64,000 nucleotides of DNA from Anaerolineae bacterium (GTDB lineage Bacteria; Chloroflexota; Anaerolineae; Anaerolineales; Villigracilaceae): positions 56,207 through 120,206 of the forward strand of contig JAFLCE010000004.1 in the NCBI GenBank assembly GCA_017303655.1, given 5' to 3'. A program made the translations under genes and the position numbers. The notes under the pieces are model-generated. The model did no database searches, was not told where the DNA came from, and was given only the letters and a program-made list of their open reading frames with translations. Shown here piece after piece: positions 12,406-32,704 of the stretch. How positions within the stretch are numbered: the stretch's first letter is position 1; each line of letters starts with the position of its first letter.

Positions 12406-14622
12406 TCAATACCGCCCTCGGGTCACGACTGCTTCGGGGTTCGGCAGGTCGCTTTCCCTTGCCGGGAAAACCTGTACCGCACATGCCTTGAATTCAGGTA
12501 TTTTTGCCTGTGGGTCAAGCACGTCATTGGTCAATAGATTTGCGGCAGCTTCTGCAAAGTGCCAGGGAAGGAAGACAACGCCCACGGTGGTTTTCTCTGT
12601 TACTGTAGCGCGGACGATGATCTCTCCGCGTCGGCTCTGGACCTTGACCGGGTCGCCGTTTCTGATGCCGTGGATCTCGGCGTCGGCGGGATGAATTTCC
12701 ACACGTGCTTCGGGGTAAATTTCATTCAGCGCAGAATTGCGAGTCATGGTGCCGCCATGCCAGTGTTCGAGTAAACGTCCCGTCGTAAGGATAAAGGGAT
12801 ACTCATCGTTGGGTTCTTCCATTACTGGGATGTATTCCAGTTGATGGAACTTGCCGCGTCCGCGCGGGAAGGATTCTTTGAAAAGGGTTGGCGTGCCGGG
12901 ATGGTCCATCGTCGGCACAGGATAGATCAAACCGACTTTGTCGATACGATCATAGGTGATGCCAGCATAATCAGAATTGACACTCGCCATCTCGCGCAGG
13001 ATTTCTTCGGGGTTGGAATAGGTCCAATGGGCAGTGGCAAGCCCAAGTCGAGATTCGAGGCGGAGTGCCAAGTCGCACAGAATTTGCCAGTCGGGGCGGG
13101 CTTGTCCACGTGGCGGTTGCGCGGCGCGGACTCGTTGCACGCGTCGATCTGTGTTCGAGAAGGTGCCATCTTTTTCAGCGAAGGGCGTGGCGGGCAGGAA
13201 GACATCCGCAAACGCGCCGGACTCGTTGATGAAAATATCCTGCGCAACAAGAAACTCAAGATGCTGCATGTGTTTGCGCGTCTCATTGAGATTCGGCTCA
13301 GACATCATCGGGTTCTCGCCCATGATGTACAGTGCACGGATGCCGCCTTCGTGTGCATGGCTGAGAATCTCGGTGGTGGTGAGACCCAGTTTGAGGCTCA
13401 AGCCGCCTTCTTCGATGTTCCAAGTCTTTTCCCATTTGGCGCGGTTTTCAGGATTATCCACGCGCATGTAGCCGGGATAATGGAAAGGCATCGCGCCCAT
13501 GTCACTTGCGCCTTGCACGTTGTTTTGCCCGCGCAAGGGATTCAAACCAGTGCCATCACGCCCAATATGACCCGTGAGAAACGCGAGATTGATCAACGCG
13601 AGTGCGGAGGCGGTGCCGTGTGAAAGCTGAGAGATGCCCATGCCCCAATAGATCGCCGCATTTTTAGCATTGGCATACAAGCGTGCCGCTTTGCGAATAT
13701 CTTCGGCAGGTACACCGGAAATTTCTTCGGCATATTCAGGGGTAAAGGTTTCGAGCGATGAAAGGAATTCGGTGTAACCTTCGGTGCGATCATTGATAAA
13801 GTCGTGATTGACAAGGTTTTCTTCAACAATCACATACGCCATGGCAGTGAAGACGGGCACATTTGTGCCGGGCTTGAGCGGCAGCCACATCTCTGCCATA
13901 TCCACTAAATCAATACGGCGCGGGTCGATCACGATCATCTTCGCGCCGTGCTTTTGAACCGCTTCCTTCATCTGTAATGCAATGATGGGATGGTTCTCAG
14001 AAGTGTTCGAGCCAGTCACAATAAATACATCATTCATCACGACCTGACTTGCCGTGTTGCTCATGGCAGAAGAACCAACCGCCTGTTGCAGTGCAACCAC
14101 AGAACCTGCGTGACACAAACGCGTGCAGTGATCCACGTTGTTGGTGCGAAACAGAGCGCGGTACATTTTTTGCAAAAGATAATTATCTTCGTTGGTGGCT
14201 TTGGCACAGCAATAGACCGCCATTGCATCTGAACCCTCACGTTTGTAAATACGCGTGAGGTTATCCGCCACGAAGTTCAGGGCGGTGTCCCAATCGGTTT
14301 CGAGCCAATCCCAGTCATTCGAGATTTTGGAATCAGGAATCGGTTTTCCATCCACGCTTACGGCAAAGACTTGCTCGCGTCCTTCGGGTTTCGGTTTGCC
14401 TTCCAGCAAATAACGACGTACAAGTGGAGTCGTAATACGTTTGGGGTGATAGACAAAGTCGTAGCCAAAACGTCCCTTCACACATAAATTTCCATGATTG
14501 ACAGGCGAGTCGAACGGACTGGTCACCTTGTAAATAAAATCATCCTTGACGTGTAACTGCAATGTACAGCCCACGCCACAATACGGACAAGTCGTTGTGG
14601 TCACTCGGTCTGATTTGATCAT
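12406..14622 (-). CDS. fdhA: Formate dehydrogenase catalytic subunit (molybdopterin, Cys type)
   Basis: Catalytic subunit oxidising formate to CO2 at a bis-molybdopterin Mo or W centre. At 738 residues, the N-terminal [4Fe-4S] motif uses Cys12, Cys15, Cys19 and Cys47, followed by Lys50, which relays electrons in this family. The metal-ligand position is Cys170 next to His171 ([15 protein letters not shown]), so it is the cysteine and not the selenocysteine form. The C-terminal dinucleotide-binding domain (about 610-730) ends [17 protein letters not shown]. The gene overlaps the upstream iron-sulfur subunit by ATGA. The three-gene order (NuoEF fusion, iron-sulfur protein, FdhA) matches soluble NAD-linked formate dehydrogenases. 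A terminator follows. Electron bifurcation or reversal cannot be excluded. Confidence 0.93.
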
Positions 14623-15311
14623 CGCGGCTTCCTCTGTTTTTTGCCTGTATTCATAACGCTAATTTCAGCAGGCGATTTTCCTGATTCCAATAAAAATTCG
14701 CGTTTGGGTTTCAATGCGCCGGTCGGGCAGACGCCCACACATTGACCACACATCACACAAGTCGTTTCAGGAATGGGCTTATCGAAGAACGTAGCGATCT
14801 GCGTTTCAAAGCCACGCCCTTCAAAATTGATGGCAAAGGTATATTGCGCATCCTCCGCGCAGACTTGCACGCAGCGCCAACACAGCAAACACTTCGAATA
14901 GTCGCGGATGTACATTGGGTTGTCGTCTTTGACATCTGACTCGCGCCGCTCGGCATCGGGGAAGCGTTCGTGGCTCGCGCCGTATTCGTCCATCATCGTC
15001 AGGATATCGGGCGCGTCGGATAAGTCCATGGTGGAGGCGAGCATTTCGAGAATGGTCTTGCGCGCGCGGATGACTTTCTCGCTTCGCGTCTGGACCTTCA
15101 TGTTGGTTCCCGCTTTGACGATGCACGCAGGCTGGAGCACTCTCTGCCCCTCCACTTCGACGACGCACATGCGGCAAAGTCCATTCGCTGTGGTGGCTTC
15201 GTGGAAGCAGATGGTGGGAATGTCGATACCGTTATCGCGGGCTGCATCTAACAATGTCTGACCATCTTGCGCGGTAACTTCCTTGCCATCCATTACAAAT
15301 GTGACTGTCAT
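14619..15311 (-). CDS. Iron-sulfur subunit of the formate dehydrogenase (NuoG/HoxU N-terminal type)
   Basis: Electron carrier between the FdhA centre and the diaphorase subunit. The ATG at 15311 overlaps the stop of the upstream gene (ATGA), giving 230 residues. Residues 1-78 are a plant-type [2Fe-2S] domain with Cys35, Cys46, Cys49 and Cys63. A His/Cys-containing 3Cys-G-type segment may lie in the middle (about 80-140). Two [4Fe-4S] motifs follow, [11 protein letters not shown] and [14 protein letters not shown]. In many formate dehydrogenases this module is fused to FdhA; here it is separate. Its 3' end overlaps the fdhA start by ATGA, so translation is coupled along the operon. Confidence 0.93.
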
Positions 15312-16984
15312 GAGCTCACCTGCTTTTCGCTGAATAACTCGGGCCACAATTTCATTGCGGAGAGAACCGCACTCGCAGCGGTCTGACCTAAACCGCATAA
15401 CGAAGCATCGGTCATCGTCCAGCCGACATCTTGTAAGCGGACGAAATCACCGGCCTGAACATTTCCTTCCGCTACGCGGTCAAGGATCTCTCGTTGGCGT
15501 TGAGTTCCCATTTGGCAGGGATAGCATTTGCCACAGGATTCATGCGCGAAGAAGTGTCCGAGCCGTTTCAAAACATCTACCATATCACGGGTTTCATCGA
15601 AGACCATCACCACACCAGAGCCAAGCGGCAAACCAGTAGCCCGTAAATCTTCGAAGGTCATTTTCACATCGAGATGCTCAGAGGTAGCGAAGGCTCCTGC
15701 CGCACCGCCGAACAGAACGGATTTGAGTTTTTTCTCGTCTGTTACTCCACCTGCCATGTCAAGCACTTCGCGCAAGGTCGCGCCGAATGCGACTTCATAC
15801 AAGCCGGGCTTGACGACATCGCCCGATAAGCAGAACAGTTTTGGTCCGGGCGATTTCTCGGTGCCGATCTTGCGATATTCCACTGCACCCATCTCAAGAA
15901 TGAGCGGTACATTACACAGAGTTTCAACGTTGTTAATGACAGTTGGTTTGCCGAACACCCCATATGTTGTCGGGAAGGGCGGCTTCACACGCGGAAAACC
16001 GCGCTTCCCTTCGATGGATTCGAACAGCGCGGTCTCCTCGCCACAAATATAGGCACCCGCGCCAACGCGAATTTCAATATCAAAGTTTTCAAGATAGCCT
16101 GCTGTTTTGGCTTCTTGAATTGCGTTTTCCAAAACAGGGACAATATACGGATATTCCCCACGAATATAAATGTACCCTTTGGTCGCACCGATGGCATAGG
16201 CTGTGATGCACATGCCTTCTATCGTTTTATGCGGATCATCGAGCAACAAGATGCGATCCTTGAACGTGCCTGGTTCGGATTCGTCCGCGTTGCAGATGAC
16301 GTATTTTTGATCCGCTTCCGCTTTGAGCGCACCTTCCCATTTGATGCCAGCAGGGAATGCTGCGCCGCCGCGTCCGACTAAGCCGGAAGCTTTAATCTCA
16401 TTCACAACTTCTTCGCGACTCATGGCTTTGGCTTTTTTCAAGGCGGTATATTCGCCATATTTTTTCAGGGAAGTTGTTTCGCCGCCGCAATTTTTTGTCA
16501 GCAGACGAAGCGTCCCACCAACGGGAGATTTGGGACGATAGGCTTTGTCTACGCCAAAGTCTTCGAGGGCATGGTTGCCCTTCGTCACCAACATCGCCGG
16601 TACTTGGTCACACAGCCCCAGGCATGGACTCGGCTCAATGGTGAGATCCAACTCTGGGTGAGTCTGATGCGTTTCCAGGTCATATTTTTGACATTGCCGC
16701 TTTAGGAGTCCATCCCCATCTTTTAATCCACACGCCGGGTCGGCGCAGACGCGGATCACATTTTTGCCGGTCGGTTTGTTGTAGTACATGGCATAGAACT
16801 CGATGACGCCATGCACATCCGCAAGCGGAACGCGCAAGGTTTTGGCGACTTCGGCAGCCACGGGTTCGGGTAACCAGCCATAAATATTTTGAGCCGCATG
16901 CAAGGCTGGTAACAGCCCCGAGCGGCCCATGGGAACATACTTTTCGAGTGCAGGTTGTAATGGGGAGAGATCAATTTCAGGCAT
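15308..16984 (-). CDS. NuoE-NuoF fusion, NAD(H)-reactive diaphorase subunit
   Basis: Transfers electrons from formate oxidation to NAD+. Residues 1-150 are a NuoE-like thioredoxin fold with the [2Fe-2S] ligands Cys80, Cys85, Cys121 and Cys125. The rest is NuoF-like: the FMN/NAD region ([45 protein letters not shown]), an SLBB segment, and the terminal [4Fe-4S] site ([13 protein letters not shown] with a later LCGLGQ). Total 558 residues. NuoE and NuoF are separate in complex I and fused in many soluble dehydrogenases and hydrogenases. The gene is first in the operon, with GGAG upstream of its ATG and a promoter-like TATACT in the divergent gap. Confidence 0.94.
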
Positions 16985-17075: not shown

Positions 17076-17819
17076 ATGCCGTCAATAGCAATAAAAGAAC
17101 TCACCCACAAACCTCTAAAGGAAGAAATCTACGATGCGTTGCATCGTCAGATCATCGCGGGTAAATATACGCCCGGCGACTGGCTTCGACAAGAGGATAT
17201 TGCCAGTCAAATGGGCGTCAGTATGACTCCCGTCCGCGAGGCGTTGGATCTTTTGGTGGCAAAAGGTATCGCCGAACGGGTGCCATACCGTGGCGTGCGC
17301 GTTCGTGAAATGTCTGAGAAGGATATTGTGGAAGCGTATGGCATGCGCTTGATCCTTGAGGCGATGATCGCCAAAGAGGTGGCATTAAATATCACCCCGG
17401 AACAGATCGCGGAGCTTGAAGCCATTATGGCAGAAATGGATCGGCATGTGGAGTTAAGCGAAATGCCGCAGGAACGTCAACTGAGCCGCCAGTTCCATGC
17501 CGCGGTGGCAGCCGCTTCAGGAAATGATCTCCTGATACAGCTATATGCCATCGTTTCGAACGCCTTTCCAGATTGGTTGTTGTATGAAGCGTTGTACCGA
17601 AAACCGGAGCTGGTCTCTAGCAGTGTGGCGCAGACTCATGACGAGCACGCGTCAATGATGGAAGCCTTTAAGAAGCGTGACGCGGATAAGGCTGTGAAGG
17701 TTTCGCTTGAACATGTAATGGAATCAGGTCGCTGGCTGGAAACCTATCGAAACATCCCGGCGAATTTACTTAGAGAAAAAGAAAAACAAGTTTCGCACTT
17801 GATCAAAAAAACAAAATAA
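17076..17819 (+). CDS. GntR-family regulator, FadR/FCD subfamily
   Basis: Predicted ligand-responsive transcription factor of 247 residues. The N-terminal winged helix (about 10-80) shows the family pattern EEIYDALHRQIIAGKYTPGDWLRQEDIASQMGVSMTPVREALDLL in pieces. The C-terminal FCD-type helical domain (about 90-230) has the Asp and three His expected for a metal- or carboxylate-binding pocket (MDRHVE, QFHAAVA, THDEH and further Asp/His). It is divergent from formate dehydrogenase and is followed 13 bases later by the corrinoid protein gene. It is thus the probable local regulator of both, perhaps sensing the methylated substrate or a carboxylate product. That is inference from position. Confidence 0.92.
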   Translation: MPSIAIKELTHKPLKEEIYDALHRQIIAGKYTPGDWLRQEDIASQMGVSMTPVREALDLLVAKGIAERVPYRGVRVREMSEKDIVEAYGMRLILEAMIAKEVALNITPEQIAELEAIMAEMDRHVELSEMPQERQLSRQFHAAVAAASGNDLLIQLYAIVSNAFPDWLLYEALYRKPELVSSSVAQTHDEHASMMEAFKKRDADKAVKVSLEHVMESGRWLETYRNIPANLLREKEKQVSHLIKKTK

Positions 17820-17832
17820 TTCAGGAGGCAGT

Positions 17833-18492
17833 ATGTCGGAAGAACTTGAGAAATTATATAAGGATATGGCTCAAAGCATTATTGAAGGCGACTCGGATAT
17901 TTCTGTGGAGCTCGCGAAGAAATCCATTGAAATGAACGTTCCGCCCTTGGATGCGATCACAAAAGGATTTGTTATTGGCGTCAATTACATCGGCGATCAA
18001 TTTGGTGCCGGTGAAGCATTCTTGCCTGAGTTGGTGATGGCTGGTGAAGCCATGAAAGCGGCGGTTGCTACGCTCGAACCGGAATTGCTCAAACTCGGTG
18101 AAGCCCGCGAGACCATGGGACGAGTTGTGCTCGCCACGGTAGAAGGTGACATTCACGAGATCGGCAAGACCCTTGTCGGCACCATGCTAAGCGCCTCCGG
18201 CTTTGAAGTGACCGACCTGGGTGTGGATCAACCGGCGGATAAGATCATCGGCAAAGCGCTTGAGATCAACGCCAGCATCATCGGCATGAGCGCCTTATTG
18301 ACGACCACCATGGTACGTCAGCGTGAAGTGATCGAAGAGATGGATAAAGAAGGGCTGCGCCCGCAGATCAAGGTTATGGTTGGCGGCGCTCCCATCACCC
18401 GTGACTGGGCAGCCAAGATCAAAGCCGATGGATATTCAGAAGATGCCGTCGGTGCCGTAAAGCTCGCCAAGGAATTGGTCGGCAAGGCCTAA
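17833..18492 (+). CDS. Corrinoid (cobalamin-binding) methyl-carrier protein, MtbC/MttC family
   Basis: Small methyl shuttle, 219 residues, carrying a methyl group on Co(I)/Co(III) corrinoid between the MttB-type enzymes and the methyl-THF methyltransferase. An N-terminal helical cap (about 1-90) is followed by the B12-binding Rossmann domain with the base-off motif Asp106-x-His108-x-x-Gly111 (EGDIHEIGK). A conserved GMSALLTTTM and GGAPITRDWA complete the cobalamin pocket. A strong ribosome site (AGGAGG) lies upstream of the start. It is the second gene of the cluster. No separate activation protein (RamA-like) is visible nearby, so corrinoid reactivation must be supplied elsewhere. Confidence 0.95.
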   Translation: MSEELEKLYKDMAQSIIEGDSDISVELAKKSIEMNVPPLDAITKGFVIGVNYIGDQFGAGEAFLPELVMAGEAMKAAVATLEPELLKLGEARETMGRVVLATVEGDIHEIGKTLVGTMLSASGFEVTDLGVDQPADKIIGKALEINASIIGMSALLTTTMVRQREVIEEMDKEGLRPQIKVMVGGAPITRDWAAKIKADGYSEDAVGAVKLAKELVGKA

Positions 18493-18511
18493 AGCAGGAA
18501 ACGAACAACAT

Positions 18512-18555
18512 GGGATGAGGAATGAGGCGTGCCTTGTTCCTCATCCCTATTTCTT
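18512..18555 (+). terminator. Hairpin between the corrinoid protein and MttB genes
   Basis: An 11-bp outer stem (GGGATGAGGAA with TTCCTCATCCC) continues through two wobble pairs into AGGC/GCCT, then TATTTCTTTT follows. It could attenuate transcription so that the carrier protein is made in excess over the methyltransferase. Confidence 0.6.
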
Positions 18556-18586
18556 TTACCCAATAGAACTTAATTAGAGGTGTTGC

Positions 18587-20065
18587 ATGAGACCCAAACT
18601 TACTTTGCTTAGCGATGAGATCATCGCCCGCATATTTGCAGAAGCCTACGAGTTGCTTCTGAAGCCCGGCATCAAAGTTCAAAATGAAGAAGCGCGGGAA
18701 TTATTGATGCGCGAAGGCGTGGTCATCAACCCCGAAACCAATGTGGCTCAGATTCCCGCTTCGTTGGTGCAACGCGCATTGGAAAGTGTGCCGCGCGAGT
18801 TCTATTTGTATGATTATTTTGGGAATCCCACCGTCCATTATGGCGGCGACTCGGTTCACTTTGACCCCGGTTCATCGGGCATCACCATGCTCAATCCGGA
18901 TACCCTTGAGCATGACACCACCGAGACGGAACATCTGATCCGCTTGCTAAAAATAGCGGAGCAAATTCCACAATACGACGCACAATCCACTGCGGTTATC
19001 TGTCACGACGTGCCTAAAGATATTCAAGATTCATATCGCTTATATCTGGCGCTTTTGTATTCTAAAAAGCCCATCGTTACTGGTGCTTTCACGAACAAGA
19101 CCGTGCAAGAGATGATCGACATGCTATCCGTTTTTGCGGGCAGCCCCGAAGCCGCGCGCGAAAAGCCGCGTGCCATCTTTGACGTGTGCCCTGCTCCGCC
19201 ATTGATCTGGAGCAACTTCGGCGCTGGCAACCTTATCAAACTTGCGCGGGCAGGCATCCCTGCCGAGATTGTATCTGTGCCACTCTCAGGTGCTGCCGCA
19301 CCCGTGACCATGCTTGGAACGGTCACCCAGCATACAGCAGAATGTTTGGCGGGCATCACCATTCATCAACTTGCCCACCCCGGCTCCCCCATTGTGTGGG
19401 GCGGCGCAGCGGCAATCTTTGATATGAAAAAAGGCGCGACCCCCATGGGCGCCATCGAAACCGCCATGCTTGATTGTTCCTATGCCCAGGTTGCCAAAAC
19501 CCTCGGCATGCCCACGCATACCTACCTTGGTGCAACCGATTCAAAATTAGTCGATGCCCAAGCCGGGTTAGAGAGCGGCATTTCTGCCATGGTCGGCGCG
19601 CTCAGCGGCATCAATATGATCTCCGGTTCGGGCATGCTCGATTTCCTCGCCTGCCACAGCGCCGAAAAACTCGTAGTTGATGCAGAAGGCATTGCCATGG
19701 CAAAGCGCATGATCGGCGGCGTAAAACTGCATACCGATACGCTCGCCACTGGCTTCTATGATGACAAGATCAACTTCAAAGGCGGCGACTTCCTCAAACA
19801 AAAAATAACGATGCAACTCTTCCGTGAAGAACAGCACCTGCCCGGCGATGTCATCGACCGCAGTTCGACTCGCGCCTGGAAGGAAGCCGGTTCATTGGAT
19901 GCCTTCGGTAGAGCCAAACTACGTGTGAAGGAATTGCTCGCCTCCTACATCCGCCCAGAGCTGGACTCTGACCAGGAAGCGCGTCTCCACTCGTACATGC
20001 TCGACCTCGCCAAAAAGACTGGCGTCGACGAATTGCCCAAGCTCGAAGATTTTCAACCTGTCTAG
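18587..20065 (+). CDS. MttB-superfamily corrinoid methyltransferase 1 (non-pyrrolysine)
   Basis: Trimethylamine methyltransferase family enzyme of 492 residues that should demethylate a quaternary amine and methylate the neighbouring corrinoid protein. The frame has no internal TAG, so it lacks the pyrrolysine of true archaeal-type MttB and belongs with glycine betaine-type MtgB, proline betaine or carnitine enzymes. Sequence hallmarks include the N-terminal LLLKPGIKVQNEEARELLMREGV and a TIM barrel with VSVPLSGAAAPVTMLGTVTQHTAECLAGI. The substrate cannot be read from sequence. It is followed by a strong hairpin, and by a peptidase and a second homologue. A start at 18587 is supported by TTAGAGG upstream. 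Confidence 0.9.
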   Translation: MRPKLTLLSDEIIARIFAEAYELLLKPGIKVQNEEARELLMREGVVINPETNVAQIPASLVQRALESVPREFYLYDYFGNPTVHYGGDSVHFDPGSSGITMLNPDTLEHDTTETEHLIRLLKIAEQIPQYDAQSTAVICHDVPKDIQDSYRLYLALLYSKKPIVTGAFTNKTVQEMIDMLSVFAGSPEAAREKPRAIFDVCPAPPLIWSNFGAGNLIKLARAGIPAEIVSVPLSGAAAPVTMLGTVTQHTAECLAGITIHQLAHPGSPIVWGGAAAIFDMKKGATPMGAIETAMLDCSYAQVAKTLGMPTHTYLGATDSKLVDAQAGLESGISAMVGALSGINMISGSGMLDFLACHSAEKLVVDAEGIAMAKRMIGGVKLHTDTLATGFYDDKINFKGGDFLKQKITMQLFREEQHLPGDVIDRSSTRAWKEAGSLDAFGRAKLRVKELLASYIRPELDSDQEARLHSYMLDLAKKTGVDELPKLEDFQPV

Positions 20066-20074
20066 TAATTTATT

Positions 20075-20116
20075 AAGATAAAACCGAGTACTATACACAT
20101 TACTCGGTTTTATCTT
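20075..20116 (+). terminator. Strong hairpin after MttB-type gene 1
   Basis: Perfect 16-bp stem (AAGATAAAACCGAGTA, 20075-20090, with its complement 20101-20116), 10-nt loop. There is no following T-run, but the 3' arm is T-rich. It separates the first methyltransferase from the peptidase. Confidence 0.7.
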
Positions 20117-20137
20117 CAAGAAAGTATTGCCTCCTTC

Positions 20138-21904
20138 ATGCTCACTCTGCCTCAACTCCTTCAAATCCCATACGTAGATACCGGTCTGAGTTTTACGATC
20201 TCACCCGACGAAAAACATATCGTCTTTGCGTGGAATAAGACCGGCACCTGGGAGTTATGGGAATACTGCCAGGGTGAGACAAAAAAGTTGGAGAGTAGCT
20301 TGGAAGGCGCGAAGGGTTCGCCGCGCTTCTCGCCTGATGGAACGAAAATTGCTTTTGCCATCGACCTTGACGGCAGTGAGTCGTATCACATTGCCATTCA
20401 CGACCTGAACACGAACATCACCACTGATCTCACGCCGGATGTTCTGTACGCGCATCAACCTAATATTGCCTGGTCTGCAGATGGTCAAGCGTTAGCTGTG
20501 CTTTCCGATGCCAAGGGGACATTTGCCTTGTTTTTGCTTCCATTAGACGGCAGCTCAGCCCACATGGTTCGGAACTTCTTTCACCCAAGTTGGGATGTAG
20601 CCTGGTCACCCGATGGCATGTGGCTGGCAGTTGAGTCTGAATCCACGGCAAGTGACCGGACGCTTCACATCGTGCCAATGGGCAGGCGCAAAGGTCCACG
20701 TGTAAGCACGGTGCAATTGAGTATTGATGGAAAGCCGATCAACGCACAACACCCAGTCTGGTCGCCAGATTCAAAATCGTTGGCGTTCTCATGCGAGAAT
20801 AGCGAATGGTTCAATATCGGTGTCTATCATATTGACACAAAAGAAATTGAATGGATCTCTGATTCAGTTGGGGATGATACCCAGCCCACATGGTCGCAGA
20901 GCGGAGATATTCTCGGCTGGGTACACAGCGAAGGTGCCAAGACCAACTTCCAGTTTAAGGAAAGAGGCGCTGCCATTCGTGGAGTCAAAGTCGGTGAGGG
21001 AGTCCATGCTCACCCACGGATCACCGCCGATGGAGTCGTCATCCTCTTTGAAGATGTGAATCGCCCGCCTGACTTATGGAAGATCGATCTTGAGAGCGGC
21101 GTAGCCACGCAATTATCGAAGTCTTTGGATGCAGAGTTGAATTTTGTTCAGCCCGAAGAGGTTTGGTATGCGGGCATGGACGGCGTGCAAGTGCCGGCTT
21201 TGTTGTATCGCGGCGGGAATGAAAAAGCGATAGTAGACATTCACGGCGGACCGAATTGGCATTTACAATTTTTATGGAACCCGTTGCTGAGTTACATGGC
21301 GGCACAGGGGTGGACGGTGCTTACGCCGAATTATCGCGGCTCGACCGGCTACGGAAAGCAGTGGCAGAATGCCAGCCGCTACGATATGGGCGGCGTGGAC
21401 AACGACGATTGTGCCGCGGGTGCAAAATATTTATTGGAAAATGGTTTGGCGAAAAAAGTCGCAGTGACCGGGCGAAGCCACGGCGGATATTTAACGATGA
21501 CCTGTTTGACCGCGTACCCGGGTTTATTTGCAGGTGGGTCGGCGGTGGTGCCGTTCTTAAATTGGATCAAGTCTCATTATGAGTCGAGAGAAGATCTGCA
21601 ACATTGGAATATTGAGAACATGGGCGACCCAGAAGATAACCGTGATTTGTGGATCGCGCGTTCACCATATTTCTTTTTAGACCGAGTGCAAGCGCCTGTG
21701 CAAATGATCTGCGGAGAAAATGATCCGCGTTGCCCGGCGTCGGAGTCGATTGATGCACGTGATAAGTTAGTAGAATTGGGGAAGGAAGTAGAATTGTTGT
21801 TATATAAAGGAGAAGGTCATTCCTTTTTGAAGATCGAAAATGTGATCGACTCAGAATTAAAGCGGATAGAGTTTTTGGAAAAAGTATTAGACGATAGACG
21901 ATAG
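20138..21904 (+). CDS. S9-family prolyl oligopeptidase-like serine peptidase
   Basis: Predicted cytosolic acylaminoacyl- or dipeptidyl-type peptidase, 588 residues. The N-terminal part (about 1-330) is a TolB-like beta propeller with repeated SPDGT/SPDGM-type blades. The C-terminal alpha/beta hydrolase domain has the nucleophile Ser447 in GRSHGGYLT, Asp529 (CGENDPRCP) and His561 (GEGHSF). There is no signal peptide. The last codons (VLDDRR, stop) read into the GACGAT repeat. It lies between two MttB homologues, which suggests a substrate released from peptides or amides, for instance an N-methylated amino acid. Recruitment by chance is possible, as peptidases are common. Confidence 0.9.
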   Translation: MLTLPQLLQIPYVDTGLSFTISPDEKHIVFAWNKTGTWELWEYCQGETKKLESSLEGAKGSPRFSPDGTKIAFAIDLDGSESYHIAIHDLNTNITTDLTPDVLYAHQPNIAWSADGQALAVLSDAKGTFALFLLPLDGSSAHMVRNFFHPSWDVAWSPDGMWLAVESESTASDRTLHIVPMGRRKGPRVSTVQLSIDGKPINAQHPVWSPDSKSLAFSCENSEWFNIGVYHIDTKEIEWISDSVGDDTQPTWSQSGDILGWVHSEGAKTNFQFKERGAAIRGVKVGEGVHAHPRITADGVVILFEDVNRPPDLWKIDLESGVATQLSKSLDAELNFVQPEEVWYAGMDGVQVPALLYRGGNEKAIVDIHGGPNWHLQFLWNPLLSYMAAQGWTVLTPNYRGSTGYGKQWQNASRYDMGGVDNDDCAAGAKYLLENGLAKKVAVTGRSHGGYLTMTCLTAYPGLFAGGSAVVPFLNWIKSHYESREDLQHWNIENMGDPEDNRDLWIARSPYFFLDRVQAPVQMICGENDPRCPASESIDARDKLVELGKEVELLLYKGEGHSFLKIENVIDSELKRIEFLEKVLDDRR

Positions 21905-21950
21905 ACTGTGGAAGGTCTTACGGTCAACAGTCCATTGTCCATGGTCAAAT
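21893..21950. repeat. Dispersed intergenic repeat (GACGAT-type), copy 2
   Basis: The tandem GACGATAGACGATAGACTGTGG and the following CAACAGTCCATTGTCCATGG resemble the reverse complement of 7098-7154. The unit overlaps the last codons of the peptidase gene. Confidence 0.45.
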
Positions 21951-21969
21951 ATCTCAACGAGGAGAGCCA

Positions 21970-23388
21970 ATGGAGCCACTGAAGTTTTTATCGGATGCAG
22001 ACGTTCAAGCCATGCATGAAGCTACGCTGAAAGTGATGAGCGAGATCGGCATCATCTGGACGCATAAACCCAGCCTGGATATTCTATTGCAAGCGGGCTG
22101 TTCCATGAAAGATAATCGTGTCTTGATTCCACCGGATCTTGTGATGGATTCGGTTGCGAAGGCAAACAAACGCCCGAAGATCCGCGGACGCAATGGAACG
22201 GTTAACGAATTGGGCGGCGGGAATTTATTCTTCCATAACCTCGGCGGCGCGCGCGATGTCTTTGATGCACGCACAGGCACACATCGCGCCGCGACAAATG
22301 AAGATTGTATCAACGCCACACGCGTCTTGGACGCACTGCCCAACTGTAATAACATCACACCCTTCTTCACTCCGCCCGATGTTGCCAATGAAATGATGGC
22401 ATTGCATATGTTCCGGCATGCCTTATCGAACACGACTAAACCAGTACAAGGACCTGGCATTCAGTTTGGGCATGAAGTGAAATATGCCGTGGAGATGGCA
22501 GCTGTTCTCGGTATTCAACCGCATGAGATCACCCTGTCGCTTTCGCCGGTCAGCCCGTTGACGATGCATGACGTCGCGGCACAAGCCATTATGGATATGG
22601 CGAATGCAGGCGTCATCCATGCCAACTTGCCCGCCCCCACCGGCGGCGCAACGTCCCCGATGACGATCACCGGCAGCCTTGTGCAACAAAGTGCAGAGAC
22701 TCTGGCTCCGCTTGTGCTGGCGCAAATCATGAACCCCGGCTGCGGCGTAGTCTACTGCGGGCGGCTGGGTCTGCTTGAGCCACGTACGGGTCTCATTTGG
22801 GGCGGCGTGGAACTTGGCATCTCATCGGCTGCCACGGTGCAACTCGGGCACTATTACGGATTCGCCGTCAACGTGTATGGATTTTCCACCAACGCGCATA
22901 CACTGGATGCACAAAACGCCTTCGAACGTGGACTCAACGCCTCTCTCCCCGCTCTGGCTGGGGCAGATGAACTCTCGGGCATTGGTGAAATGGAAGCCGG
23001 AGTCATGGGCTCCTTTGCCCAAATGGTTTTGGATAATGAATTAGCAAAAAGCGTGCATCGCCAACGTCAGGGTTTATCAGCGGATGCTGAACATCTGGCA
23101 CTTGAAGTCATCAACACCGTAATGGATACCAACCGGAATTATCTGGCAAGCAAACACACCCTCAAACATCTCCGCGCCGGTGAAATGGCACTCACCAAAC
23201 TCGCCGAACGCAACTCCTGGGACACCTGGGAGGAAAAATTGGGTCGTAAACAAATGGCAGATAACGCCACAGACGAAGCCGAACGCATCCTGCGTGAACA
23301 CGTCGTCCCGCCGTTGGAAGCGGCACAAGAAGCTGAATTGGACAAGATCCTCGCATCAGCAGAGCGTGAGACGGTGAAGAAGAAGTAG
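21970..23388 (+). CDS. MttB-superfamily corrinoid methyltransferase 2 (non-pyrrolysine)
   Basis: Second trimethylamine-methyltransferase-family enzyme, 472 residues, clearly divergent from the first. It likely acts on a different or partly demethylated substrate with the same corrinoid protein. No in-frame TAG interrupts it, so no pyrrolysine. Motifs include DAEAL-like start MEPLKFLSDADVQAMHEATLKVMSEIGI, a glycine-rich GGAT segment (LPAPTGGATSPMTITG) and SGIGEMEAGVMGSFAQMVLDNE. The ATG has CGAGGAGAG upstream. It is followed after 21 bases by an amidohydrolase and then the methyl-THF enzyme, which completes a methyl transfer chain. Substrate unknown; family members in Anaerolineae genomes are numerous and mostly untested. 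Confidence 0.9.
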   Translation: MEPLKFLSDADVQAMHEATLKVMSEIGIIWTHKPSLDILLQAGCSMKDNRVLIPPDLVMDSVAKANKRPKIRGRNGTVNELGGGNLFFHNLGGARDVFDARTGTHRAATNEDCINATRVLDALPNCNNITPFFTPPDVANEMMALHMFRHALSNTTKPVQGPGIQFGHEVKYAVEMAAVLGIQPHEITLSLSPVSPLTMHDVAAQAIMDMANAGVIHANLPAPTGGATSPMTITGSLVQQSAETLAPLVLAQIMNPGCGVVYCGRLGLLEPRTGLIWGGVELGISSAATVQLGHYYGFAVNVYGFSTNAHTLDAQNAFERGLNASLPALAGADELSGIGEMEAGVMGSFAQMVLDNELAKSVHRQRQGLSADAEHLALEVINTVMDTNRNYLASKHTLKHLRAGEMALTKLAERNSWDTWEEKLGRKQMADNATDEAERILREHVVPPLEAAQEAELDKILASAERETVKKK

Positions 23389-23409
23389 ACAAGTACAGGA
23401 GAATGTATC

Positions 23410-24567
23410 ATGATCAAACAAGCACATTCAATTTCAGAAGAACTCATCGAGTGGCGGCGGGATTTTCATCAACATCCCGAAACAGGCTTTGACGTTTTTC
23501 GCACGGCAGGGATTGTGGCAGATGAACTTGAAAAGATGGGCTACCGCGTCACACGCAGCGTAGGCAAAACAGGCGTGGTCGCAGAAATAGGCGAAGGCGG
23601 CAAGCTCGTCGCTATCCGCGCAGACATGGACGCCCTGCCCATCTTCGAACAGAACGAGACGGAATACGTCTCCCTGAACGAAGGCAAGATGCATGCCTGC
23701 GGACATGACTCGCATACGGCGATGGCATTGGGTGCGGCAAAGATCCTTGCAAAAGAAAAACTAAATGGACGGATTCGCTTTCTCTTTCAGCCTTGTGAAG
23801 AGACCGCAGACGATGAAGGCTTGAGCGGCGCACAGCGCATGTACGCCGAAGGCGCAGTGGCGGGCGTGGATTATGTCATTGCCCAACATGTAGACCCGAG
23901 CATGCCCGTTGGAACCATCTCCATCAACGAAGGTCCGAGCGGCGGCGGCGTGACCTCATGGCAAGCGACGATCTACGGAAAAGGCGGGCATGGTGCCTAT
24001 CCGCATGCATCCAATGATCCTTTCGTTCTGTTAACGCATGTCATCATGGGCATTAATGCGATTGTCTCACGCAGGCTGGATCCATTTGAACCGGCTGTGA
24101 TCAGCATTGGTGCTGTCAACGGCGGCTTCACGGAAAATGTCATCCCCGATAAAGTGGAACTTAAAGGCACCATCCGCTTCACTTCGCTTGAAGTGGAAAA
24201 ACAGATCCGCGAAGAATTGACGCGCGTCTTCGAGATCGTCAAGACTCTCGGCGGCGATTACAAATTAAATGTCCTCTTTGGTGGCATGCCCACCATGAAC
24301 GATAAATTTGTCTCGGATACGATTGCACAGGTTGGCAAAGACCTGCTGGGCGAAGGCAGTGTTCATCCGCTGGCAAAAACACTCGGCGCAGAAGATTTCC
24401 CCGAGTTTCTAAAAGATGCGCCCGGTGCGATGTATACCCTGGGCACTAGGATCGAAGGTCGCCCGATTTATGAATTGCATCACCCCAAATTTGACCTCGA
24501 TGAACGCGCCTTGCCGGTTGGGACCGCCGTTCTGGCAGAGACGGCATTGAGGTTTTTGAAATCTTAA
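23410..24567 (+). CDS. M20-family amidohydrolase (hippurate hydrolase-like)
   Basis: Zinc-dependent aminoacylase/carboxypeptidase, 385 residues, hydrolysing an N-acyl amino acid or amide. The catalytic domain shows the metal-ligand regions IRADMDALP, MHACGHDSHTAMAL and QPCEETADDEG, with a dimerisation domain inserted from about residue 180 to 290 (GGHGAYPHASNDPF), then LGAEDFPEFL and HHPKFDLDE near the C-terminus. The start has CAGGAGAATG close by. Position directly before the methyl-THF methyltransferase gene suggests it frees or processes the methylated amine substrate, or handles a product of the S9 peptidase (inference). Confidence 0.92.
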   Translation: MIKQAHSISEELIEWRRDFHQHPETGFDVFRTAGIVADELEKMGYRVTRSVGKTGVVAEIGEGGKLVAIRADMDALPIFEQNETEYVSLNEGKMHACGHDSHTAMALGAAKILAKEKLNGRIRFLFQPCEETADDEGLSGAQRMYAEGAVAGVDYVIAQHVDPSMPVGTISINEGPSGGGVTSWQATIYGKGGHGAYPHASNDPFVLLTHVIMGINAIVSRRLDPFEPAVISIGAVNGGFTENVIPDKVELKGTIRFTSLEVEKQIREELTRVFEIVKTLGGDYKLNVLFGGMPTMNDKFVSDTIAQVGKDLLGEGSVHPLAKTLGAEDFPEFLKDAPGAMYTLGTRIEGRPIYELHHPKFDLDERALPVGTAVLAETALRFLKS

Positions 24568-24572
24568 TTCAT

Positions 24573-24606
24573 AGACCTGACAGGTTTTCGAAAACCTGTC
24601 AGGTCT
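24573..24606. repeat. 34-bp perfect palindrome (AGACCTGACAGG type)
   Basis: AGACCTGACAGGTTTTC followed directly by its complement forms a 17-bp stem without loop bases. The core resembles palindromic intergenic repeats reported from several genomes. It lies between the amidohydrolase and the methyl-THF enzyme and is not followed by a T-run. Confidence 0.75.
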
Positions 24607-24628
24607 GAATATCCTTCGGAGGGCACCC

Positions 24629-25501
24629 ATGCATACCATTCTTAAGTCAGATAAAAAAGAAGTTGTCATCGGCATCGATAAGCCATTCGTGATCATCGGC
24701 GAAAAACTGAACCCGACCGGCATCAAAAAGCTGGGACAGGCGCTGGTGGAACGCAATATGGATTACGTCAAGCACCTTGCCAAACGTCAAGTGGATTGGG
24801 GCGCGGATGTTTTGGATGTCAATGTGGGGCATCCGCAAATTGAAGAAGCCGAAGTAATGCCATTGGTGGTGGAAGCCGTGCAATCCGTGGTGGATGTGCC
24901 ACTGTGCATCGACTCGAATGAGCCGAAAATTCTTGAAGCTGGGTTGAATGCCATCAGAGGTGGCAAGCCGTTGGTCAACTCGGTCAACGGGGAAGAAAAG
25001 CAATTGAGCACGGTGCTGCCCATCGTCAAAGCAAGAGGCGCGGCTGTGATCGGGTTGACCATCGCCGATGATGGCATCCCCGCCACGGCGGAGGGTCGCC
25101 TGGCTGCAGCAGCGAAGGTGATTGAACGGGCGGCGAAGATCGGCATTCCAATTGAAGACATTATTATCGATCCGCTCGTGATGACGGTGGGACATAACAG
25201 CAGTGCGGCGCTAGTCACATTGAAAGCGATTGAGTTGATCAAGAATGAGTTCGGGGTGAACATCAGTCTCGGCGCAAGCAATGTTTCGTTTGGTCTGCCA
25301 GACCGACACTCGGTCAATGCGGCGATGCTTTCCATCGCCATGCTCACGGGGGCAACCACCTCCATCACCGATCCTATCAAGCTGGGCAACACCATCCGCG
25401 CTACAGACTTATTGATGGGCAGGGATGCAAATTCGATGCGCTATCTGAAGTACTTCCGCACCACTGAAAAACTGCGCGAAGCAGAAGCTGCTACAAAATA
25501 G
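24629..25501 (+). CDS. Methyltetrahydrofolate:corrinoid methyltransferase (MtgA/AcsE-like)
   Basis: Pterin-binding TIM-barrel enzyme of 290 residues that moves the methyl group from the methylcorrinoid protein to tetrahydrofolate, giving 5-methyl-THF, or runs in reverse. Family sequence is clear: IGEKLNPTGIKKLGQALVERN, WGADVLDVNVGHP, SLGASNVSFGLPDRHSVN. It closes the cluster, after two MttB-type enzymes and the corrinoid carrier, as in glycine betaine systems (MtgB/MtgC/MtgA) of other bacteria. The GGAGGG before the ATG is a good ribosome site. A classical terminator follows. Direction in vivo is probably demethylation of a growth substrate. Confidence 0.94.
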   Translation: MHTILKSDKKEVVIGIDKPFVIIGEKLNPTGIKKLGQALVERNMDYVKHLAKRQVDWGADVLDVNVGHPQIEEAEVMPLVVEAVQSVVDVPLCIDSNEPKILEAGLNAIRGGKPLVNSVNGEEKQLSTVLPIVKARGAAVIGLTIADDGIPATAEGRLAAAAKVIERAAKIGIPIEDIIIDPLVMTVGHNSSAALVTLKAIELIKNEFGVNISLGASNVSFGLPDRHSVNAAMLSIAMLTGATTSITDPIKLGNTIRATDLLMGRDANSMRYLKYFRTTEKLREAEAATK

Positions 25502-25508
25502 ACTATGG

Positions 25509-25538
25509 CTCCGGGTCTGTATGACCCGGAGTTTTTTT
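25509..25538 (+). terminator. Rho-independent terminator of the C1 cluster
   Basis: CTCCGGGTC and GACCCGGAG form a 9-bp GC-rich stem around TGTAT, followed by TTTTTTT. It ends the methyltransferase cluster. Confidence 0.93.
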
Positions 25539-26333: not shown

Positions 26334-27401
26334 ATGAAACAAAGCCTTCTTGTATTTTTAACTTTAGCGGTTCTTATCTCTGGCTGCGCACCCCAGGCGG
26401 CGCCACCACCTACTCAAACCATTCCCCCGCCGACTGAAACAGCAACTCAAACCAGCACGCCAGACCCCACAGCCACGTTTACATTAGTACCAACTGCCAC
26501 TCCGATACCAAACCCGATGAGCATCGTTGCCCTTCGAAATCAGGATTACCCCGGCAGTGAAATCACCATCGTCAGGGAACTGGAGCGCGGCGTAAATTAT
26601 CGCCGCTATTATGTGTACTATCTTTCTGAAGGGTTGAAGATCTACGCATTACTTACCATTCCAAATGGAGAGAAACCTGAGGGCGGCTTCCCAGCGATTG
26701 TGTTCAATCATGGCTACATTCCCCCAGATGTTTATAAAACCACCGAGCGCTACATTGCCTATGTGGATCAACTTGCACGCGCAGGCTATGTCGTCTTCCG
26801 CATTGACTATCGCGGACATGACCAATCGGAAGGCGAGGCAACTGGCGCCTATGGCAACCCCGGCTATCAATTCGACGTGATGAATGCACTAGCATCTCTC
26901 AAGCAACATCCCGATGTAAACCCCGAAAAGATCGGCATGTGGGGTCATTCCATGGGCGGATACTTAACCCTACGAGCCATGGTCATCTCAAGCGACATCA
27001 AAGCCGGTGTGATCTGGGCGGGCGTAGTCGCTTCTTACCCCGACCTGTTATATAACTGGCGACGAACAGGCGCTTTCACGCCGTCACCAAGTTCCACAGG
27101 CAGAGGCTGGCGCGGTGCATGGATCGAACAATACGGCACGCCGGAAGAAAACCCAGCTTTTTGGGATTCTGTCTCCGCAACCTCTTACCTCACGGATCTT
27201 TCGGGACCGGTGGAGCTGCATCATGGAACCACAGATGACGATGTCCCTGTGGAGTTTTCGATCCGCCTGGCAGAGTTGGGACGACAGAATGGTCAGATCA
27301 TCAACTTATATACGTATGATGGCGATAATCACAACATCTCGAAGTATTTCACCCAGGCAATGAATCAGACAATAGCTTTCTTTGATATTTATTTGAAGTA
27401 A
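26334..27401 (+). CDS. Lipoprotein alpha/beta hydrolase (S9-like esterase or peptidase)
   Basis: Secreted, lipid-anchored hydrolase of 355 residues. The signal MKQSLLVFLTLAVLISGC has a lipobox with Cys18. A Pro/Thr-rich spacer follows (PPPTQTIPPPTETATQTSTP, about 22-60). The hydrolase domain has the oxyanion region FPAIVFNHGYIPP, nucleophile Ser206 in WGHSMGGYLT, an acid in LHHGTTDDDVPVEFS and a His in YDGDNHNI near the C-terminus. AAGGAG lies before the start. The Thr/Pro spacer is typical of surface proteins in Chloroflexota. Substrate unknown. The convergent repeat region follows the stop. Confidence 0.9.
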   Translation: MKQSLLVFLTLAVLISGCAPQAAPPPTQTIPPPTETATQTSTPDPTATFTLVPTATPIPNPMSIVALRNQDYPGSEITIVRELERGVNYRRYYVYYLSEGLKIYALLTIPNGEKPEGGFPAIVFNHGYIPPDVYKTTERYIAYVDQLARAGYVVFRIDYRGHDQSEGEATGAYGNPGYQFDVMNALASLKQHPDVNPEKIGMWGHSMGGYLTLRAMVISSDIKAGVIWAGVVASYPDLLYNWRRTGAFTPSPSSTGRGWRGAWIEQYGTPEENPAFWDSVSATSYLTDLSGPVELHHGTTDDDVPVEFSIRLAELGRQNGQIINLYTYDGDNHNISKYFTQAMNQTIAFFDIYLK

Positions 27402-29510: not shown

Positions 29511-30398
29511 TTATGACACGAGCGTGGATTTTAATGCAGCAATATGCTCAGGGGTAGTGCCACAACATCCCCCAATTATCTTAGCGTCCCAATGAGAAGC
29601 ATGCCCACAATAGGCAGTTGGGTTTTCAGCATCGGTATTGATCCAGCCTACTTTTTCATCGGCATAACCAATATTGCCATACGAAATCAAAGGGAAGTCT
29701 TTGCCGCAAGCAGCACGCAGTTCATCCAACGGATGATGAAGCGTGGGAGTGGGTCCGCAGTTCACGCCAATGGCACATACGCCTAGAGGCATTAATTCAC
29801 GAGCGGCAGTAGTCAACGTTTCGCCGGAGAGAAGTTTGCCATCCGCACCGCAGACAAAGCTCACCACCACTGGCGTTCCGGTAATGGTGGCAAGTTTCGC
29901 AATAATCACTGCCTCACGAATGGTGTTGATGGTTTCGATCAAGAACAAGTCCACGCCGCATTCTAGAAGATGATGAACCCGTTCGGAGTGTTCGGCACGA
30001 AGCGCATCATCCGATGGGACCAGGTCTGGGCGATAACAATCCTCGAGCGTGGATATGGAACCGGCGACAAAGCGGCTCGTTTCCGCCGGGACAGCTGTCA
30101 GCGCTCCCCGAGCCGTAGCCACCGCCCGGCGAGTCAATTCGAGCGCGCGTTGAGCATTTCCACTTGGCACCAAAGCACGATGATGAGTCCTGAATGTGTT
30201 CGTTGTGATGATATCAGCACCCGCCCGTAGATAATCTTCGTGAATGGTCTGCAAAATTTTTGTATCGCGGTCATTCATGAGCGCATTGGCAGACCAGAGT
30301 GGCAAGCCTGTATCTACGCCGCGACGGTTAAGCTCCGTGCCTGTGGCGCCATCGAGTATTAGTTTTTTTGGTTGAGCAAGTGCAGTTAGAAACGTCAT
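29511..30398 (-). CDS. Homocysteine S-methyltransferase family protein
   Basis: Zinc-dependent methyltransferase, 295 residues, transferring a methyl group from S-methylmethionine, betaine or a similar donor to homocysteine. The N-terminal LDGATGTELNRRG and ADIITTNTFRTH are family hallmarks. The zinc cysteines lie in VNCGPTP and GGCCGTTPEHI. It is single-domain, not part of a full-length MetH. The presence of betaine-type methyltransferases nearby makes a betaine donor attractive, but distance (4 kb) argues against an operon. Overlap or linkage with the GNAT gene on the same strand is short (21 bases), so the two may be co-transcribed. Confidence 0.9.
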   Translation of the reverse strand: MTFLTALAQPKKLILDGATGTELNRRGVDTGLPLWSANALMNDRDTKILQTIHEDYLRAGADIITTNTFRTHHRALVPSGNAQRALELTRRAVATARGALTAVPAETSRFVAGSISTLEDCYRPDLVPSDDALRAEHSERVHHLLECGVDLFLIETINTIREAVIIAKLATITGTPVVVSFVCGADGKLLSGETLTTAARELMPLGVCAIGVNCGPTPTLHHPLDELRAACGKDFPLISYGNIGYADEKVGWINTDAENPTAYCGHASHWDAKIIGGCCGTTPEHIAALKSTLVS

Positions 30399-30419
30399 GA
30401 GAAAGTTTTTCCAATTCTT

Positions 30420-30845
30420 TTATTTTGTTGTGTCATATTTTTCCATCCAACGTATAGGGTCTTTAAGTTCTGTAAACCCAAATTGTTCATAGAGTCCATG
30501 TGCATCTTGCGTTAGTAAACACCAACGTCTTAAGCCTTGCAGATCGGGGTGAGCCAAGATGCACTGCATCATCCATTTACCAAGGGCTTGTCCGCGATAC
30601 TCTTCGTGAATAAAAACGTCACAGAGATAAGCAAAGACGGCGCGATCTGTGACCACACGGGCGAAGCCGATCTGCCTTTCACCATCATATACACCGAAGT
30701 TCAATGAGTACTGAATGGATTTTTCGATCGCATCTCTTGGGCGTTTATTTGCCCAATAAGAACGCGAGAGAAACTCACAGATCGCATCCATATCGAGGCG
30801 GGACGTGTCATCTGAAATCGTAAAAGGGTCGCGTTTGAATTCCAT
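30420..30845 (-). CDS. GNAT-family N-acetyltransferase
   Basis: 141 residues. The acetyl-CoA-binding fold is recognisable: VVTDRAVFAYLCDVFIHEEYRGQALGKWMMQCILAHP gives the beta4-alpha3 motif with Q/R-x-x-G-x-A/G. It resembles the small YjgM/AAC-type N-acyltransferases. The C-terminal LLTQDAHGLYEQFGF is typical. Substrate unknown. There is no ribosome-binding site; TAAAAT lies 6 bases before the start codon (30852-30857, - strand), which suggests a leaderless mRNA. It is divergent from the proline-racemase-family gene. Confidence 0.87.
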   Translation of the reverse strand: MEFKRDPFTISDDTSRLDMDAICEFLSRSYWANKRPRDAIEKSIQYSLNFGVYDGERQIGFARVVTDRAVFAYLCDVFIHEEYRGQALGKWMMQCILAHPDLQGLRRWCLLTQDAHGLYEQFGFTELKDPIRWMEKYDTTK

Positions 30846-30851
30846 TCAAAT

Positions 30852-30857
30852 ATTTTA
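30852..30857 (-). promoter_or_regulatory. Candidate -10 element of a leaderless promoter for the GNAT gene
   Basis: TAAAAT on the - strand, then six bases, then the ATG at 30845. No Shine-Dalgarno sequence is present. Confidence 0.35.
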
Positions 30858-30959
30858 TCAGGCAGAAATCAAATAAGGTAAACTTGGCAAAACATTCTTT
30901 CCTCTTTCTTATTTCAGCAACTGCAACTATCCACTTCCTAAATTTTATGGAGCCTTCCC

Positions 30960-32012: not shown

Positions 32013-32035
32013 TTGCTAGTGACTGGAGAGTATAT

Positions 32036-32683: not shown

Positions 32684-32704
32684 GAAGCAGGCAAAGGAAC
32701 TCTC

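Follow-up and report, generated by a model that had tools for sequence, protein, structure and literature searches.

Our analysis of a 64,000-nucleotide stretch of the genome of an Anaerolineae bacterium (the window; contig JAFLCE010000004.1, positions 56,207 to 120,206, forward strand) points to a model whereby seven genes at positions 17076-25501 encode a system that harvests methyl groups anaerobically from permethylated amino acids supplied in peptides, a model to which we give an even chance of being right. In this model, methylated peptides would enter the cell, for which the cluster of related genera includes genes for an OppABCDF transporter, and would then be cut by an S9 acylaminoacyl-peptidase-like enzyme and an M20 amidohydrolase to free quaternary amino acids. 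Two methyltransferases of the MttB superfamily, MttB-A and MttB-B, would demethylate these amino acids and transfer the methyl group to a Co(I) corrinoid carrier, from which a methyl-tetrahydrofolate (THF):corrinoid methyltransferase would pass it to THF for oxidation or synthesis. We infer each reaction, the transport step and all substrates from the gene content, the clades and the conserved neighbourhood that are described below. The seven genes are intact open reading frames (ORFs) that run in the same direction, as a prediction made earlier from the sequence (the original prediction) had described them, and Pfam and NCBIfam matches back every assignment made from the ORF list:

17076-17819, + strand: GntR/FCD transcriptional regulator, 247 amino acids (PF07729, 82 bits; PF00392, 70.7 bits)
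17833-18492, + strand: corrinoid (cobalamin-binding) carrier of the MtgC/MttC kind, 219 amino acids, with a DIHEIG motif (PF02310, PF02607; nearest solved chain MttC, 7xcn)
18587-20065, + strand: MttB-A, non-pyrrolysine methyltransferase of the MttB superfamily, 492 amino acids, candidate Nε-trimethyl-lysine:corrinoid methyltransferase (PF06253, 275.6 bits; own clade)
20138-21904, + strand: S9 acylaminoacyl-peptidase-like serine peptidase, 588 amino acids, with the nucleophile motif GRSHGG (PF00326, 154.8 bits; 5l8s, 1ve6)
21970-23388, + strand: MttB-B, second non-pyrrolysine methyltransferase of the MttB superfamily, 472 amino acids (PF06253, 227.1 bits; own clade)
23410-24567, + strand: M20 amidohydrolase of the N-acyl-amino-acid hydrolase or carboxypeptidase type, 385 amino acids (TIGR01891, 338.4 bits; 1xmb, 1ysj)
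24629-25501, + strand: methyl-THF:corrinoid protein methyltransferase with an MtrH/MtgA-like role, 290 amino acids (PF00809; NF005719, 283.4 bits, cut-off 259; nearest solved chain 2yci)

In this arrangement, which recurs in related genomes and is therefore more than chance, the MttB genes lie beside those for a cognate corrinoid protein (17833-18492) and a methyl-corrinoid:THF methyltransferase (24629-25501). The same three parts, an MttB-fold enzyme, a corrinoid protein and a methyl-corrinoid:THF methyltransferase, make up the MtgB-MtgC-MtgA system for glycine betaine of Desulfitobacterium hafniense, likewise without pyrrolysine. This three-part logic of methyl transfer is already known; what the analysis adds is a specific, testable candidate substrate for one MttB clade. 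With moderate confidence, we propose Nε-trimethyl-lysine as the best-supported candidate substrate of MttB-A. The compounds used by most members of the MttB superfamily remain unknown according to the part of PMC8604678 consulted. In the literature searched, coverage of which was partial, we found no paper that joins trimethyl-lysine with MttB, none on a trimethylamine methyltransferase of Chloroflexi or Anaerolineae, and none that links MttB with an oligopeptide transporter or methylated peptides.

Two MttB clades apart from the characterised enzymes

The fold of MttB-A and MttB-B is clear from sequence, with PF06253 scores of 275.6 and 227.1 bits against a gathering score of 25. Neither frame contains an internal stop codon, and at the position aligned to pyrrolysine-334 of MttB the A clade mostly carries A, M or L, and S stands there in the B clade; both are therefore non-pyrrolysine enzymes. 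Both also fall below the cut-off of TIGR02369, the pyrrolysine trimethylamine methyltransferase (350.4 and 338.2 against 525). MttB-B has NAH where the DSK/DAK motif stands. In-frame stops inside some MttB matches of the window's family were considered as a sign of pyrrolysine and rejected, the ORFs being full length and the stops taken to lie at match ends; true amber codons were located in loci L291, L292, L364 and L372. Four PF06253 genes were counted across the 172 contigs (4.6 Mb) of the source genome, G000.

MttB-A and MttB-B share 22% identity with each other, 28% and 27%, respectively, with solved MtgB, and 30% and 29% with solved MttB. Reference sequences were drawn from a scan of named genomes for MtgB (80 loci) and then from 40 genomes of the Acetobacterium bakii family, one of which (G523; 4.4 Mb) was taken as Eubacterium limosum-like from its 42 MttB homologues; MtpB, MtcB, MtyB and MthB are presumably covered as part of this set without being singled out, and 41 of the 42 homologues were recovered. 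In a first tree of 135 rows, A needed three changes and C, a third MttB type, four. Removed before the final tree were 18 rows: the wrong-frame L125, two A-labelled rows (28 and 31% identity), eight C-labelled rows (28-31%) and seven near-duplicates, the low-identity A- and C-labelled rows having been labelled by best hit alone. The final tree of 117 rows includes MtgB, pyrrolysine MttB (Pyl-MttB) and the 41 homologues of G523; like the first, it comes from a quick search with support from the SH-like approximate likelihood ratio test (SH-aLRT) only, with several long end branches. In it, A (42 rows), B (11) and C (13) each form one group with an SH-aLRT of 100 and contain no G523 row; B, C and Pyl-MttB group together (97), and the MtgB rows, apart from both A and B, have a branch of their own (99). 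Tree placement, which the original prediction had proposed as a check, thus sets both proteins outside MtgB, Pyl-MttB and the homologues of the E. limosum-like genome, and its reading of two divergent MttB proteins without pyrrolysine is borne out.

Against the 41 G523 homologues, A reaches 28.6% identity at best and B 27.7%. On these values (at most 29%) and the separate clades, with the E. limosum enzymes represented by this presumed relative, we reject A or B as one of the known enzymes for glycine betaine, carnitine, proline betaine, butyrobetaine or phosphocholine. Among the matches listed from the 40 genomes of the Acetobacterium family, none to B exceeds 31%. Of seven named genomes, Ca. 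Formimonas warabiya comes closest for A, with 41% identity, and none of the others gives more than 33%. Within the phylum, B is found in 17 of 400 genomes at E ≤ 1e-100, all in the window's family, and A in 34 of 400 at E ≤ 1e-90, spread over families f1, f11 and f33. Tandem duplication of MttB-A was observed in loci L065, L067, L068, L070 and L073-L078, the second copy being about 70% identical to that of the window.

Compared with the MtgB system, then, the enzymes of the cluster belong to other clades (A 28%, B 27% identity), the corrinoid protein scores 218.6 against the MtgC cut-off of 310, and the hydrolases are absent from all 80 MtgB-type loci. B and C group with Pyl-MttB of Methanosarcina barkeri, but A, B and C all lack a pyrrolysine codon. 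As described in the consulted part of PMC8604678, MtpB, MtcB and MtyB of E. limosum act on different substrates and share MtqC and MtqA, so that several MttB proteins are served by one corrinoid protein, likewise here; none of the 41 G523 homologues, among which these enzymes were not identified individually, is a member of clade A or clade B. In the MthB-MthC-MthA-MthK system for choline of E. limosum, as far as PMC12155760 was consulted, an ancillary enzyme prepares the substrate for a non-pyrrolysine enzyme of the MttB superfamily, as we propose here, with the difference that a kinase adds a phosphate there and peptidases would release the substrate in the window cluster. Aromatic residues peculiar to the A clade are conserved there (F168, F198, F278 and Y313), and our guess is that they form a cage for the quaternary amine.

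Peptidases and an oligopeptide transporter

The nearest solved chains of the S9 enzyme (5l8s, 1ve6) are acylaminoacyl-peptidases, and it has the marks of S9C, namely matches to PF00326 and to a propeller, and the motifs GRSHGG, GENDPR and GEGHSF for the Ser-Asp-His triad; no signal peptide is seen in its 588-residue translation. The original prediction had called it prolyl-oligopeptidase-like; the enzyme is closer to acylaminoacyl-peptidases than to prolyl oligopeptidase proper. The M20 amidohydrolase was named correctly; it scores 338.4 bits against the TIGR01891 subfamily cut-off of 153.75, and its nearest solved relatives are indole-3-acetic acid (IAA)-amino-acid hydrolase (1xmb) and YxeP (1ysj).

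Conservation of these genes was followed in 40 loci selected on MttB-A from 95 matching genomes of the window's family and in 16 further loci selected on MttB-B. Because ORF calls were poor in L125-L133 and L099 (shadow ORFs), presence was scored by tblastn. The A-selected loci contain the corrinoid protein gene in all 40 cases, MttB-B and M20 in 32 each, S9 in 31, the MtrH-like gene and MttB-C in 28 each, GntR in 27, a second S9 in 15 and OppA in 9. Where MttB-B is present, S9 accompanies it in 30 of 32 loci and M20 in 31 of 32; where it is absent, each occurs in one of eight (Fisher p = 1.5e-5 for S9 and 3.3e-6 for M20, values that are overstated since the loci are not independent). The 16 B-selected loci, several of which end at a contig edge, contain M20 in 15 cases, S9 in 12 and a nearby MttB-A in 5. 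Because the hydrolases follow B with or without A, we distinguish two modules, corrinoid-[C]-A and [Opp]-S9-B-M20-MtrH, the first of which is also present in families f11 and f33. Neither S9, M20 nor Opp genes occur in the 80 MtgB loci, which are controls from other phyla, or in five loci of the window's family with other MttB types.

Support for a peptide as the source also comes from the transporter. In L101, a family-5 binding protein (SBP_bac_5), two BPD_transp_1 permeases and two ATPases with ABC_tran and oligo_HPY domains, all with confirmed family assignments, are encoded between MttB-A and S9. An OppABCDF set lies in the cluster in 9 of the 40 A-selected loci (8 at a stricter threshold), in genera other than that of the window, and a transporter also occurs in the B-selected loci L149 (OppBCDF), L150 and L154. 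In L089 and L154, transporters of the same architecture stand in the same place while being only 26-49% identical, and OppABCDF (28-48% identity) comes after an MttB-A homologue in L367, a locus from the Formimonas phylum; the pairing therefore arose more than once. The nearest Opp set retrieved from the window's genome lies on contig C126 beside a different MttB, termed type D. That region (L143, 1535-15313) encodes the type D MttB, EamA, a RIO-type kinase, a creatininase, two S9-like hydrolases and an OppABCDF-type transporter. EamA and the kinase led us to consider the C126 MttB as the phosphocholine enzyme MthB, which was rejected as neither matched the neighbours of E. limosum-like MttB loci.

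Hydrolases that travel with B, a transporter that joins the cluster and the absence of all of these from the 80 MtgB loci together support a peptide source, and they strengthen, still as an inference, the suggestion of the original prediction that the substrate is freed from a peptide or amide, for example as a permethylated amino acid. The transporter of other genera and the lysine aminomutase genes beside MttB-A homologues, described below, are independent support for it. Neither MttB falls in a characterised clade and relatives keep S9 and M20 beside B; the combination that the original prediction had named as fatal to it, known MttB types and relatives without hydrolases, was thus found in neither part. 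We take MttB-B to be the enzyme of the peptide module; a guess at its substrate is an Nα-permethylated residue released by a peptidase for blocked N-termini.

The donors might instead be ordinary free betaines such as ergothioneine, hercynine or beta-alanine betaine, with the peptidases and transporter forming an adjacent scavenging cassette. Peptide transporters and M20 enzymes are indeed common genes, and in the consulted parts of PMC8604678 and PMC12155760 the characterised members of the superfamily all use free small quaternary amines. We nevertheless think this rather unlikely, given that S9 and M20 come and go with MttB-B, that these genes and Opp are absent from the 80 MtgB loci and the five other-type loci of the family, and that the transporter changes its identity while keeping its place. 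If the hydrolases acted on quaternary amines conjugated through an amide or ester bond, such as N-acyl or acylated carnitine-like compounds, this would fit the kinship of the M20 enzyme with IAA-amino-acid hydrolase and N-acyl-glutamine aminoacylase and that of the S9 enzyme with acylaminoacyl-peptidases. Peptides are the better match for an OppABCDF-type transporter, even though solutes of other kinds are also carried by family-5 binding proteins, and the lysine-fermentation context of MttB-A homologues argues for an amino acid, so that conjugates appear unlikely as the source.

Lysine catabolism beside MttB-A homologues

The proposal of Nε-trimethyl-lysine as the substrate of MttB-A, made in preference to these alternatives, derives from its homologues in other lineages. 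KamA (lysine 2,3-aminomutase) is encoded near the MttB-A homologue in 10 of 33 loci outside the window's family, namely in 6 of 15 in the phylum of Formimonas, 4 of 9 in f11, which belongs to the window's class, and 0 of 9 in f33; none of the 80 MtgB loci contains KamA, KamD, KamE, Kce, OppA-C, S9 or M20. Comparing 10 of 24 loci (f33 excluded) with 0 of 80 gives a Fisher p of 7.5e-8, which is overstated since the loci are related. Only adjacency of KamA is informative here, because the gene itself is common in the window's family (113 of 120 genomes). In f11, six loci have an MttB-A 62-64% identical to that of the window; KamA adjoins it or is one gene off in four of them, one lacks KamA and one ends at a contig edge.

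In L291, from Ca. Formimonas warabiya, the order is sigma-54 regulator, KamD, KamE, Kce, amino-acid permease, KamA, MttB-A homologue, CoA-transferase, amber MtbB, corrinoid protein, amber MttB and aminotransferase, and L364 shares with it KamD, KamE, Kce, KamA, the CoA-transferase, the MttB-A homologue, the corrinoid protein and the amber MtbB and MttB. KamA also lies near an A homologue in L366, L369, L370 and L371, and KamD, KamE and Kce do so in L375; in L369 the lysine exporter LysO adjoins the A homologue as well. KamA of L291 and of L134 passes TIGR03820. MttB-A homologues of other lineages thus lie in or beside a lysine fermentation operon (kamA, kamD, kamE, kce and CoA-transferase), unlike those in the window's family. 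We know of no lysine fermentation operon with methylamine methyltransferases. The consulted part of the main text of a Formimonas proteomics paper (PMC9768040) does not contain the words lysine or aminomutase.

Known substrates place Pyl-MttB on tertiary and Pyl-MtbB on secondary amines, so that the gene set of L291 and L364 matches the three degrees of N-methylation. Full demethylation in these loci would begin with MttB-A on the quaternary amine, continue with Pyl-MttB on the tertiary and end with Pyl-MtbB on the secondary amine. Among the 33 loci outside the family, Pyl-MttB (four loci: L291, L292, L364 and L372) and MttB-C (17 loci, for example L365, L371, L375 and loci of f11 and f33) never occur together, and this mutual exclusion suggests that MttB-C may take the place of Pyl-MttB. 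We tentatively put forward a wider scheme, which we rate below an even chance: MttB-A would found a family of Nε-trimethyl-lysine:corrinoid methyltransferases, Formimonas and one relative would demethylate the side chain fully and then ferment the lysine, and the window's family would couple A to peptide import and peptidases, drawing methyl groups from methylation marks bound in proteins, with MttB-C replacing Pyl-MttB.

KamA produces beta-lysine, and class III aminotransferases recur beside MttB-A homologues (L291, L369, L370 and f11 loci). Both would suit a lysine-derived betaine (trimethyl-beta-lysine, 5-trimethylaminovalerate or lysine betaine) as the substrate of MttB-A in place of trimethyl-lysine. 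The lysine fermentation pathway starts from unmethylated lysine, and the methyltransferases of L291 and L364 sit with that whole pathway, which makes such a betaine quite unlikely in our view.

If trimethyl-lysine is indeed the substrate, protein methylation marks would serve as an anaerobic source of energy and carbon, and it is tempting to speculate that pyrrolysine methyltransferases act on an amino-acid side chain and not on methylamines alone. Gut work, as far as consulted, discusses trimethyl-lysine as a precursor of trimethylamine, so that a way of demethylating it instead would matter more widely.

Several observations weigh against the model. The link to lysine catabolism seen in 10 of 33 loci elsewhere is absent from all 40 loci of the window's own family, from the nine of f33 and from the three f11 loci whose A is 50-51% identical to that of the window, and the 113 family genomes with a KamA gene include one without MttB-A. 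Lysine 5,6-aminomutase (KamD) was found in none of 120 family genomes, a weak result as no control genome gave a hit either; the window's family probably does not ferment lysine by this enzyme. The nine f33 loci contain none of KamA, Opp, S9 and M20, which speaks against a universal link, and the window genome's own cluster has no Opp genes. The MtgB controls come from other phyla, and the control within the family comprises five loci only. Hairpins in the window separate the corrinoid gene from MttB-A and MttB-A from S9, so that a single transcript is no more than a possibility for this cluster. The gap between A and S9 is at most 13 nucleotides in 9 of 20 relatives, measured between match ends.

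Hairpins and neighbouring genes

The non-coding elements of the cluster are the following:

18512-18547, + strand: 16-pair hairpin in the gap between the corrinoid gene and MttB-A (terminator-like scan; intergenic fold z = -4.35)
20083-20108, + strand: hairpin core in the gap between MttB-A and S9, possible attenuator or terminator (sequence inspection; fold -20.1 kcal/mol, z = -6.35)
24574-24605, + strand: perfect 32-base palindrome in the gap between M20 and the methyl-THF methyltransferase (fold z = -4.84)
25507-25533, + strand: terminator-like stem-loop with T run, 3' of the last gene (terminator-like scan)

The palindrome is single-copy in the window, and no exact copy occurs among the retrieved loci of other genomes. 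An Rfam search of the window gave no match and hence no cobalamin riboswitch. Two sets of genes flank the cluster:

12406-16984, - strand: divergent formate dehydrogenase genes for FdhA, a 2Fe-2S/4Fe-4S protein and a NuoE-NuoF fusion (TIGR01591, 779.8 bits, above cut-off; Pfam)
26334-27401, + strand: S9-like alpha/beta hydrolase with lipobox LISGC, 355 amino acids (PF00326, 70.5 bits; translation)

FdhB adjoins the cluster in 9 of the 40 A-selected loci of the family, and the neighbouring formate dehydrogenase is a possible route for oxidation of the methyl group. The hydrolase, the second S9 counted above in 15 of the 40 loci, is, judging from its translation, a possible extracytoplasmic partner. 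Farther downstream, 29511-33637 encodes a homocysteine S-methyltransferase, a proline racemase family protein, an unassigned 215-residue ORF and an ornithine cyclodeaminase/mu-crystallin family protein; a gene of the racemase type is also present in L079 and L082, both near relatives. The window also encodes a histidine kinase of 1536 amino acids with a seven-transmembrane (7TM) region and several PAS domains (34060-38670) and an 843-residue protein with a NACHT domain and HEAT repeats (49898-52429).

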